Virus record (IMG/VR): IMGVR_UViG_3300008107_000366
Span: 1-24,939 of that record
DNA from: a virus
DNA: 24,939 nucleotides
Reading direction: 5' to 3' (one strand)
The position numbers were made by a program, and so were the translations under genes. This document shows positions 2,345-24,284 of the stretch, in pieces. Every line of letters starts with the position of its first letter. Position 1 is the stretch's first letter. Below the pieces are notes generated by a model. The model had not been told where the DNA came from, searched no databases, and saw only the letters and a program-made list of their open reading frames with translations.

Positions 2345-2412
2345 AAAACCGTATAAGGAATTCGGAAAACCGTATACGGATTTCTGACGCTTGGAGCCAG
2401 GCAAAACAATGA
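2341..2412 (+). CDS. Possible 23-codon mini-ORF carrying the dyad repeats
   Basis: An ATG at 2341 overlaps the previous TGA, and the TGA of this frame (2410-2412) overlaps the ATG of the next gene, so the mini-ORF fits exactly between its neighbours with ATGA joints on both sides. The 23-aa product repeats a heptad (NRIRNSE, NRIRISD) because the DNA carries a 21-bp repeat. It may be translated as a coupling leader for the initiator, or be a by-product of the DNA repeats. Not recognised. Confidence 0.3.
   Translation: MKNRIRNSENRIRISDAWSQAKQ
2345..2379 (+). repeat. Two 21-bp-spaced operator/iteron-like dyads
   Basis: AAAACCGTATA occurs at 2345-2355 and 2366-2376, exactly 21 bp apart. The second copy contains a perfect 10-bp palindrome, CCGTATACGG (2370-2379); the first has one changed base, CCGTATAAGG (2349-2358). 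Two helical turns between centres puts both sites on one face of the DNA, as for cooperative binding by a dimeric regulator or initiator. They lie immediately before the replication gene. Confidence 0.55.
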
Positions 2413-3320
2413 GCGCCCTGCCTGACAACATCGTGGAATTCAAGCTGCCAAAGAAGCCCAAGGTCAGGGAGAAGGAGCCTGCACCAGATCAGCGCCGTGC
2501 CTGCATTGTTCCGATCCGAGCAGTCAGCGACAGGAAGCTCCACGAAGCCGGCCTACGCCTGCTGATGGCGATCTGCAGCTACACCAACAGAGCAGGCATC
2601 ACCTGGGTTGGAGGCGCAAAGCTGGCGTCAGACTTGGGCATTAGCAAGCAGGCAGTCAGCAAGCAATTCAAGAGCCTGGTTGAGCTGGGCTACATCGAGG
2701 TCATGCGCAAGGGCTGGAAAGGACACGGGAACCAGACCATGCGCGTCATCTTTGATGAAAGCATCGATGCCGAGACAGCGATCGCAGTCACCAGCAGCAT
2801 CGAGGACACCAGGCCACCTTACATCAAGGAGAAGCAACAAATGCAAGCAGATAACACCATCGATCCCGAAGGACTCAAGCGCATCCAAGACATGATCAAG
2901 GGTGTTGTCAAACCAATGACCCAACCACCAAAGGAGTACGTCATGCCCAAGTCAGGAGACACCGTAACCGTTGCCAAGATGAAGAAAGAAATAGCTGCAG
3001 CTAAGGCAAGAAGAGAGAAGCATAGTCAACCCCTAGAGGTTGACAATGTAGAGGGCTCTCATAGTCAACCTAATAGTCAACCTACTGAGGTTGACCCAAA
3101 CGAGAAAGAACGAGTACTTATAGATATATACATAAAAGGTTTAGATAAAGAGTTAAAGAAGTACTTAGTAGATCTAACCGAATTAGAACTAAGGTCAACC
3201 TTGTCGCAATTGCAAGCGCGTTGCCAAGCTGATGGCGTGGGCATGCCGACCAACGAAGCGCTGGTCGAGGCCATCTTGGTGCTGCATGCGGACAACCTGA
3301 TCAACACGCATGCCGTTTAA
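2409..3320 (+). CDS. Replication initiator-like protein (O-like, winged helix) with internal origin
   Basis: This 303-aa product starts at ATG 2409, overlapping the mini-ORF stop, with CAGG/GGAG upstream. After a Lys/Pro-rich tail, residues about 32-115 form a winged-helix domain: RLLMAICSYTN, the HTH at about 72-96 (LASDLGISKQAVSKQFKSLV) and a YIEVMRKGWKGHGN wing. This is the kind of N-terminal DNA-binding domain found in phage replication initiators (lambda O, RepO/DnaT-like). Residues 120-235 are low-complexity linker, encoded partly by the repeat cluster at 3021-3095. Residues 235-303 form a compact helical C-terminal domain that could contact a helicase or its loader. No ATPase, primase or polymerase motif is present, so the protein probably opens an origin and recruits host replication proteins. 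The lambda-O-like layout is my main argument; sequence homology is not established. Confidence 0.6.
   Translation: MSALPDNIVEFKLPKKPKVREKEPAPDQRRACIVPIRAVSDRKLHEAGLRLLMAICSYTNRAGITWVGGAKLASDLGISKQAVSKQFKSLVELGYIEVMRKGWKGHGNQTMRVIFDESIDAETAIAVTSSIEDTRPPYIKEKQQMQADNTIDPEGLKRIQDMIKGVVKPMTQPPKEYVMPKSGDTVTVAKMKKEIAAAKARREKHSQPLEVDNVEGSHSQPNSQPTEVDPNEKERVLIDIYIKGLDKELKKYLVDLTELELRSTLSQLQARCQADGVGMPTNEALVEAILVLHADNLINTHAV
3021..3095 (+). repeat. Iteron-like cluster of GTCAACC/GGTTGAC inside the initiator gene
   Basis: CATAGTCAACC is at 3021-3031 and 3060-3070, and ATAGTCAACC again at 3073-3082. The inverted form GAGGTTGAC is at 3036-3044 and 3087-3095. Two pairs form dyads of identical geometry: 7-bp arms with a 6-base centre at 3025-3044 and 3076-3095. 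The first is a 20-bp palindrome with only one mismatched pair. A further GTCAACC stands alone at 3194-3200. This resembles the O-binding iterons in lambda gene O. Confidence 0.7.
3105..3192. other. AT-rich segment next to the iterons, candidate DNA-unwinding element
   Basis: Positions 3121-3180 contain only 16 G/C out of 60 bases, in a window that is otherwise clearly GC-rich. The purine-rich + strand has runs such as TATAGATATATACATAAAA. It lies directly downstream of the repeat cluster and is flanked on the far side by one more GTCAACC (3194). Iterons plus an adjacent AT-rich tract is the standard arrangement of theta-type origins. It is still coding (residues about 233-261 of the initiator). 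Confidence 0.6.
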
Positions 3321-3650: not shown

Positions 3651-3674
3651 TGTTTTTACAACAAGGAGTATGTG

Positions 3675-3935
3675 ATGGCTTATGAGATGAGACCGGGTAG
3701 TGGTTCGCTGTTCAAGAACGACAAGAAGACAACGGATAAGCACCCGAGCCTGAAGGGTAAGGTGATGCTGCCTGATGGCACGACGCATTGGGTGTCTGGG
3801 TGGACGAAGAAGACGCAGGCGGGTGAGACCTGGATCTCGTTGCAGATCGGCGAGATGGTCGGTGGTGATGCGCATGGCCAGGCCAAGGCCAATGGCTACC
3901 AGCCGCAGTCTGCTGACTCTGATATTCCGTTCTGA
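3675..3935 (+). CDS. Short SSB-like protein with DIPF C-terminal tip
   Basis: This 86-aa product starts at ATG 3675 with AAGGAG at 3663-3668; an adjacent GTG at 3672 is the alternative. Residues 10-57 read as short beta strands (SGSLFKND, SLKGKVMLPDGTTHWVSGWT, ETWISLQIGEMV), compatible with a small beta-barrel. The C-terminus is acidic and ends Asp-Ser-Asp-Ile-Pro-Phe, the tip by which bacterial SSB proteins recruit replication and repair partners. Normal SSB is about 170 aa, so this would be a minimal version; a DUF736-like protein is the other possibility. It opens the packaging operon and its stop overlaps the terS ATG (TGATG). The tail is clear; the DNA-binding function is inferred. Confidence 0.55.
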   Translation: MAYEMRPGSGSLFKNDKKTTDKHPSLKGKVMLPDGTTHWVSGWTKKTQAGETWISLQIGEMVGGDAHGQAKANGYQPQSADSDIPF

Positions 3936-22634: not shown

Positions 22635-24284
22635 ATGGGCGTACCAATTAACAACGTGACGAGGCGCGTGGTCTATGCCGCAAGCGGCACTGGCCCGTAC
22701 GCCTTTACCTTCGAGATCCTTGCTGCGGGTGACATTGCGGTCTACAAGGACGATACCCTGCTGACGATCACGACCGACTACACGGTCACCATCGCCGGCA
22801 ACGGCACCGGCTCGATCACCCTGACTGCAGCCCCGACCGGCGCGACGCAGATCGCCATCGTCGGTAACCGGACGATTTCCCGCACCACGGACTTCGTGAC
22901 CGGCGGCGACTTCTTCGCCAACACCCTGAACGACGAGCTGGATCAGCAGACCATCTTCGCGCAGCAGAATGCTGAAGGTCTGAGCCGCGCTCTGCAGGCA
23001 CCGCAAACCGACCCGACCAGTATCAACATGACGCTGCCCAGGGCGGCGCTGCGTGCCAACAAGGCGCTGGGATTCGACGCCAACGGCAACCCAGCCATTG
23101 CTGACACGCTCGGCACCAACCGTGGCAACTGGGCGGCGGCAGTCTTGTACTACGTCCGAGACATCGTCAAGGACACCACCAACAATAACATTTGGCAGTG
23201 CATTACCCAGCACACATCGACCGGCTCGCAGCCGATCAACACCAACACCGATGCCGCCAAGTGGACGCTGCTGGTGGATGCTGCGGCTGCATCAACGTCT
23301 GCCACCAATGCGGCTGCGTCAGCCTCTGCTGCGGCGACAAGCGCATCAAATGCCTCAACATCGGCGACTAACGCAGCCAGCTCTGCTAGTGCTGCTTCAA
23401 CGTCTGCCACCAATGCGGCATCATCTGCAAGTACAGCTTCAGCGGCAGCGTCAAGTGTTAGCGCTGGTGTGACACTTTCCAGCCAATGGGCAACGCTGAC
23501 CACCGGCATTGTTGATTCAACTGATTACTCATCTAAGGCATGGGCAGTTGGTGGCACCGGTGTTACCAATACAGCTAGCCGTGGTGCTGCCAAAGAATGG
23601 GCAACGAAGACCGGCGGCACGGTCGATGGCACAGATTACTCTGCCAAGTATTACGCATTACAGACTGTCAGCAGCGCGTCGGCAGCAGCGTCAAGTGCCA
23701 GCGCAGCCAGCTCAAGTGCATCAGCGGCCAGCACTTCTGCCAGCAATGCTTCTAGCTCGGCATCTGCGGCATCGACTTCTGCTAGCAACGCATCGACCAG
23801 CGCGACTAACGCATCTAACTCTGCTAGTTCGGCAAGCACCAGTGCGACCAATGCCTCAAACAGTGCGTCGGCGGCATCAACAAGTGCAACAAATGCAGCC
23901 ACTAGCGCAACTAATGCGGCATCTTCTGCGACTACCGCTAGCACCGCAGCCACTAACGCTGCTGCCAGCTATGACGCATTTGACGATAGATACCTTGGCT
24001 CTAAGTCTTCAGCGCCGAGTGTAGACAACGACGGCAACACACTGCTGACCGGTGCCTTGTACTGGAACACAACAGCAAATCAACTTTATATTTGGACAGG
24101 CTCTGCATGGGATGCGGCTGCATTTAGCGTATCTGGTGCGGTGACTAGCTTTAATACTAGAACCGGCTCAGTAACATTGACCAGCACTGATGTTACTAAT
24201 GCATTAGGCTTTACCCCTGCAACCGCTGCATCTGTCTCAGCCATTCCCGATCCCGTGGCAATGGCACTTGTTTTCGGGAGTTAA
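22635..24284 (+). CDS. Tail fibre protein, T7-fibre-like N-terminus with heptad repeats
   Basis: This 549-aa product has GGAAGGA before its ATG. Residues 1-130 resemble the T7 gp17 N-terminal tail-binding domain: GPYAFTFEILAAGDIAVYKD, TLLTITTDYTVTIAGNG, IVGNRTISRTTDF. Residues 163-215 (GNWAAAVLYYVRDIVKD, then WQCITQHTS) look like a CBM5/12-type module. Two Ala/Ser/Thr/Asn stretches (about 216-275 and 344-445) repeat in sevens (SATNAAS, SASAAST), suggesting a trimeric coiled-coil shaft. Between them are two similar units, SSQWATLTTGIVDSTDYSSK and KEWATKTGGTVDGTDYSAKY. The end has LYWNTTANQLYIWTGSAWDA. It probably anchors the fibre, while the next gene may carry the receptor-binding tip. Confidence 0.85.
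   Translation: MGVPINNVTRRVVYAASGTGPYAFTFEILAAGDIAVYKDDTLLTITTDYTVTIAGNGTGSITLTAAPTGATQIAIVGNRTISRTTDFVTGGDFFANTLNDELDQQTIFAQQNAEGLSRALQAPQTDPTSINMTLPRAALRANKALGFDANGNPAIADTLGTNRGNWAAAVLYYVRDIVKDTTNNNIWQCITQHTSTGSQPINTNTDAAKWTLLVDAAAASTSATNAAASASAAATSASNASTSATNAASSASAASTSATNAASSASTASAAASSVSAGVTLSSQWATLTTGIVDSTDYSSKAWAVGGTGVTNTASRGAAKEWATKTGGTVDGTDYSAKYYALQTVSSASAAASSASAASSSASAASTSASNASSSASAASTSASNASTSATNASNSASSASTSATNASNSASAASTSATNAATSATNAASSATTASTAATNAAASYDAFDDRYLGSKSSAPSVDNDGNTLLTGALYWNTTANQLYIWTGSAWDAAAFSVSGAVTSFNTRTGSVTLTSTDVTNALGFTPATAASVSAIPDPVAMALVFGS
23284..23460 (+). repeat. First block of 21-bp heptad-coding repeats
   Basis: This block repeats degenerate 21-base units that encode Ser/Ala/Thr/Asn heptads. 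One 23-base unit (TCAACGTCTGCC followed by ACCAATGCGGC) is identical at 23292-23314 and 23397-23419, exactly 105 bases (five units) apart. Exact copies like this can change in number by slippage or recombination and so change shaft length. Confidence 0.75.
23660..23970 (+). repeat. Second block of heptad-coding repeats
   Basis: A longer run of the same type of degenerate 21-base units (AGC/GCA/ACT/AAT codon mixes) encodes residues about 344-445 of the fibre. The shared core GCAGCGTCAAGTG occurs near both blocks, around 23445 and 23685. The reverse strand also looks open here only because of the codon bias. Confidence 0.7.

Follow-up and report, generated by a model that had tools for sequence, protein, structure and literature searches.

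The window analysed here, which is the entire IMG/VR record IMGVR_UViG_3300008107_000366 (24,939 bases), very probably carries a phage replication origin at bases ~3021-3180, within the gene of its own initiator protein (Rep). The probability of this assignment is estimated at about 0.88, with origin activity deduced from sequence comparison. Four computational observations carry the argument: the sites themselves, a constraint on them at the DNA level, a layout conserved among relatives, and a tie of recognition-helix residues of Rep to the half-sites. The earlier note had proposed a lambda-like origin inside an initiator gene, and this proposal is supported by the array geometry, the AT-rich tract and, in relatives, by DnaA boxes and by covariation of the recognition helix with the sites.

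The phages of this group are little known, were found in water and are almost uncultured. The window, with 25 kb versus 33-34 kb in fuller relatives, is probably a fragment. Two relatives of 33,959 and 33,649 bases (G001 and G002; L219-L222) have 127-base end overlaps and are therefore probably complete. The shorter one, G002, encodes a RecT-like annealing protein, a RecE-like exonuclease and a DNA invertase-like recombinase in a left arm that is absent from the window. A tail-fibre-like ORF of the window (22635-24284) bears a long Ser/Ala/Thr/Asn repeat tract. The features relevant to the origin are the following.

2391-3320, + strand: initiator (rep) gene, an ORF of 309 amino acids from TTG 2391
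2514-2747, + strand: winged-helix DNA-binding domain, residues 42-119 (AlphaFold2 model)
2646-2648, + strand: codon of K86, which opens the recognition helix and is the main predictor of the half-site class
2661-2663, + strand: codon of K91; N at this residue accompanies GGACAC half-sites in relatives
3024-3113, + strand: DNA coding the linker, residues 212-241 (pLDDT <50, probably disordered), which contains the array
3025-3031, + strand: half-site 1, GTCAACC, left arm of dyad 1
3038-3044, - strand: half-site 2, GTCAACC, right arm of dyad 1 after a 6-bp spacer
3064-3070, + strand: half-site 3, GTCAACC, single, 12 bp ahead of half-site 4
3076-3082, + strand: half-site 4, GTCAACC, left arm of dyad 2
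3089-3095, - strand: half-site 5, GTCAACC, right arm of dyad 2; some close relatives have a degenerate copy
3096-3311, + strand: C-terminal helical domain, residues 236-307 (AlphaFold2 model), putative replisome recruiter
3099-3177, no strand: AT-rich tract directly after the array, likely DNA-unwinding element
3194-3200, + strand: sixth GTCAACC beyond the AT-rich tract, probably incidental
3672-3935, + strand: gene of a single-strand DNA-binding protein (SSB) downstream of rep (PHROG 7364, 5.5e-11)

The family consensus places the start of rep at ATG 2409, yielding a protein of 303 amino acids whose relatives begin MSALPDN. Rep has a Pfam match to HTH_36 (PF13730, 2e-7), in agreement with the earlier statement that all the repeats lie inside the gene of a winged-helix protein. 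It also matches PHROG 678 and 391, annotated 'replication initiation O-like', at 1.2e-7 and 3.3e-7. The window protein gives no match to Phage_rep_O (PF04492) at E<=0.1, and this family appears below the cut-off in five of eleven near-full-length relatives (E 4e-4 to 6e-3). The earlier view that the protein is unrelated to lambda O in sequence thus has to be softened, since the PHROG matches and the PF04492 hits below cut-off indicate that it is not wholly unrelated; it is a very remote relative at most, and the case may be either independent or very diverged. The mean pLDDT of the AlphaFold2 model is 64, so its use was restricted to the local picture: the winged-helix domain features helices at residues 42-46, 52-64, 75-82 and 86-99 and strands at 102-106 and 116-119, the helix 86-99 being the recognition helix. 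A structure search with the Rep fold matched domains of the MarR/CodY type, among many of which PDB 4pt7 ('Structure of initiator') ranked tenth with E 8e-3, and a sequence search of solved structures gave weak matches to regulators only. Rep relatives were not found in the bacterial genome contigs searched, and the plasmids searched gave a single weak match.

Rep is present in eleven relatives of 32.6-34.2 kb, in which searches for DnaB, DnaC/IstB (PF01695) and lambda P (PF06992) found no matches. This makes Rep the best candidate for the initiator, and the array the candidate origin on which it acts. In two near-full-length relatives the Rep match crosses one in-frame TGA each (G007:C1:8376-9323 and G014:C1:29875-30801).

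The window array comprises five GTCAACC half-sites in 71 bp, three direct and two inverted (3025+, 3038-, 3064+, 3076+ and 3089-), exactly as described in the earlier note. Four of them form two 20-bp dyads of identical geometry, GTCAACC-N6-GGTTGAC, starting at 3025/3038 and 3076/3089; the fifth is the extra half-site. The G/C-poor segment reported right after the repeats was likewise confirmed, with 16 G/C in bases 3099-3158 and 13 in the poorest 60-mer, 3118-3177. A density scan of the record, proposed at that time as a check, counted 10 copies of GTCAACC versus 2.56 expected, a number reached in 0 of 100 shuffles, and the array is the densest cluster of any 7-mer in the record. Of the six close relatives, only the near-identical L003 shares the far copy at 3194, which was formerly included in the origin; the remaining five have AACAGTT or AACAGCC at this place, and the copy is therefore excluded from the origin count. 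A scan for perfect DnaA boxes found none in the array of the window. Cumulative GC skew, another check suggested earlier, mostly rises along the block of genes on one strand in the window and three relatives, and is for this reason no guide to the origin.

Relatives were retrieved from viral contigs as 234 loci with a Rep gene, among which 154 distinct proteins were analysed; the 129 distinct relatives long enough to include the linker are the set for array counts. In all 129 the array occupies the same position in the gene, over the disordered linker and ahead of the AT-rich tract. Their half-sites fall in four classes, G(T/A)CAAC, (C/T)ACAACC, NGCAAC (which reads NGCAACA in L164, L179 and L233) and GGACAC, and share a recurrent geometry: convergent dyads whose arms are separated by 3-6 bp, and direct repeats at intervals of 11-12 bp. 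Convergent pairs of half-sites are far more numerous than divergent ones (182 versus 18), and the pattern GTCAACC-N4-8-GGTTGAC occurs in at least 120 stretches of viral contigs. In 116 of 124 relatives the lowest-GC 60-mer of the gene begins between -10 and +100 bases from where the array ends. The earlier note had counted non-conservation of the repeats in relatives as evidence against an origin. In distant relatives the letters GTCAACC are lost, but the array persists and still matches the protein; that yardstick therefore needs refinement. In L237, L264, L302 and their kin, one GGCAACC is found beside a GGACAC site in arrays of the GGACAC class (CATAGGCAACCAATAGGACAC), perhaps a mixed site or the remnant of an earlier specificity.

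Perfect DnaA boxes are concentrated in or beside the array, with 49 in 47 of the 129 relatives versus 11 in 661 kb elsewhere. Inheritance of a peptide may account for part of this enrichment, since 48 of 50 boxes share one reading frame coding [PA]VD[NK], although VDN in the linkers is encoded as GTGGATAAC in 41 cases.

An array of binding sites for a winged-helix protein might instead be an operator, occupied by Rep only to repress or road-block its own gene or the downstream SSB and terminase genes. Such proteins are mostly regulators, the structure matches of Rep are of the MarR/CodY type, and initiators commonly autoregulate. However, the array lies in the middle of a coding region and is followed in nearly all cases (116 of 124) by the lowest-GC tract of the gene, DnaA boxes are often found within it, and the PHROG matches of Rep are initiators. 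A solely regulatory array appears improbable on these grounds; an operator role might exist besides origin function.

The assignment of the array as the origin on which Rep acts is connected to the protein itself by covariation between recognition helix and half-site, with half-site classes assigned by patterns picked after inspection. K86 goes with G(T/A)CAAC in 26 of 26 relatives and Q86 with (C/T)ACAACC in 35 of 35; R86 goes with NGCAAC in 50 of 52 when residue 91 is K or R, and with GGACAC in 16 of 16 when it is N. One of these relatives, L292, was mixed at first scoring; its listed sites led to a re-scoring by hand as ACAACC. Two relatives depart from these pairings, L196 and L225, which combine R86 with G(A/T)CAACC sites. 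Both carry three GACAACC-N4-GGTTGAC dyads. Position 86 has the highest mutual information with site class among 205 N-terminal columns (1.37 bits; the largest value for any column was 0.76 when labels were permuted 300 times over 51 clusters, by which kinship is only partly removed). S90, K94 and N114 come next; together with K86 they mark one helix face and the probable wing.

Close pairs of proteins give the same picture. Where two near relatives have different sites, they also differ at residue 86 in 23 of 26 pairs, versus 1 of 27 same-site control pairs of similar divergence; two of the three remaining pairs differ at residue 91 and the third involves L196. This pattern is the one predicted if Rep reads its sites directly. 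On a tree built without the recognition helix, Q86 and ACAACC change jointly in ~6 of 6 independent pairs (p ~0.03) and N91 and GGACAC in 5 of 5 (p 0.06), both counted on well-supported branches before L292 was re-scored. Residue 86 changes 11 times on this larger set versus 3 on a first tree of 81 close relatives, which was too small. One or two amino acids would thus largely predict the DNA word read by Rep. It is likely that initiator and origin, held in one gene, co-evolved through at least four specificities (K86, Q86, R86 and R86+N91) with the geometry kept. The DNA-binding domain and the array move as a unit, and the C-terminal domains are swapped between relatives: L141 and L150 share 73% identity over the N-terminal part and 96% over the C-terminal part, and for L144 and L157 the values are 89% and 28%, respectively.

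It is very improbable that the repeats are a by-product of coding for a linker rich in Ser-Gln-Pro and Glu-Val-Asp. The linker peptide of the window is indeed repetitive (HSQP, SQP, EVD) and disordered. Nevertheless, the same 7-mer is found in different frames and on both strands, coding SQP in one case and EVD in the other, and half-sites of relatives occur in all three codon phases. When the window and six close relatives are compared, 33 of 35 site columns are invariant, as are 11 of 12 third codon positions inside the sites versus 64 of 210 ahead of the array. None of 2000 synonymous-codon shuffles of rep placed any 7-mer five times within 80 bp. The site sequence also tracks a recognition helix encoded ~375 bases upstream in the gene. 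The odd linker peptide would rather be explained as written by the DNA sites of the array, which the protein tolerates best in this segment.

A packaging (pac) or partition (parS-like) site is equally hard to sustain. Such sites are also marked by repeats, and a terminase small subunit gene (PF03592, weak match) lies ~0.6 kb downstream. The half-sites track the recognition helix of Rep rather than the terminase, no partition gene was found among the ORFs searched, and a role in packaging is known neither for AT-rich tracts nor for DnaA boxes. A role for the dyads as hairpins of the rep mRNA, in attenuation or translation control, is scarcely credible: each could fold into a 7-bp stem with a 6-base loop, but unpartnered half-sites are preserved, as are direct repeats spaced by 11-12 bp, and both vary in sequence along with the dyads; the site class, moreover, tracks a DNA-recognition helix.

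As an origin, the region would function in the following way, in which binding as a dimer, unwinding, recruitment of the helicase and even origin activity are all deduced from the features above. The winged-helix N-terminal domain of Rep would bind the GTCAACC half-sites, probably as a dimer on each of the two dyads. Bending of the Rep-bound DNA would put strain on the adjacent downstream AT-rich tract, which would open. The helical C-terminal domain might then recruit the host replicative helicase, directly or via a host loader, and in many relatives host DnaA would assist at the DnaA box in the array.

No published description of this origin family was found in a literature search that covered few subscription journals. 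An origin within an initiator gene is already known from lambda and Stx phages; new are the different sites, a protein that is a very remote relative at most, the P protein not found, the DnaA boxes in many members and a family-wide change of specificity. The results provide a probable origin and initiator for a group in whose isolated member no polymerase, helicase or initiator had been recognised. Protein and site reside in one gene and are inseparable by assembly or annotation, so metagenomes can supply matched pairs by the hundreds, making the evolution of initiator-origin specificity directly testable. If the code is true, these phages form a natural initiator-origin series with which to test how specificity evolves and whether co-infecting phages are incompatible. 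The apparent absence of a helicase loader raises the question of how the host helicase is loaded.

In Rep_3-type plasmids the iterons usually lie outside the rep gene and are direct repeats. Rep of the window, in contrast, has no Pfam match to Rep_3 (PF01051) at E<=0.1, and its array lies inside rep and contains dyads. The combination of iterons, DnaA box and AT-rich tract is described for such origins, for instance those of RK2 and pPS10 (review: PMC4980987).

The closest isolated phage is the Methylophilales phage MEP301 (MW452941, L139; PMC8024684), whose terminase large subunit is 73% identical. The early genes SSB and RusA are shared and the N-terminus of Rep is related (38%). Unlike the window protein, MEP301 Rep has 201 amino acids, without linker and array. 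Its kin (L306-L338) likewise have short Reps, of 201-230 amino acids, with a different recognition helix and neither linker nor array, and a search for repeat clusters or DnaA boxes around these genes gave nothing convincing.

RepA_N replicons, such as that of the V. cholerae satellite PLE, have an initiator with an N-terminal DNA-binding domain, semi-palindromic iterons and, as a separate unit, a C-terminal domain for which recruitment of the replisome is hypothesised (PMC8263062, PMC7145576). In PLE the origin varies in step with the DNA-binding domain, and C-termini are exchanged (PMC8263062). Rep resembles these initiators in its two separate domains, in semi-palindromic iterons and in C-terminal domains that are exchanged apart from the DNA-binding domain and origin. 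The plasmid-type initiator 4pt7 occurs among its fold matches, at rank 10 next to many MarR/CodY domains. It differs by having no Pfam match to RepA_N (PF06970) at E<=0.1; furthermore, the PLE origin is intergenic, and the covariation in the phage family of the window is at residue level across about 50 sequence clusters.

In lambda and Stx phages the origin lies inside gene O, with repeats and AT-rich tract in mid-gene; each lambda iteron, 19 bp long, is an imperfect inverted repeat to which dimeric O binds, and repeat number differs between phages, lengthening the O protein (PMC7466680). The window resembles lambda in that repeats and AT-rich tract adjoin inside the initiator gene (3025-3177) and that the iterons are inverted repeats of similar size, 20-bp dyads compared to ~19 bp. 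It departs from lambda by its two dyads with perfect arms plus a half-site, of another sequence, and by a Rep that lies under the Phage_rep_O cut-off and is at most a very remote O relative. P was not found in the eleven near-full-length relatives and, unlike in lambda, many members of the family have DnaA boxes inside the array and the half-site sequence has switched repeatedly within the family.
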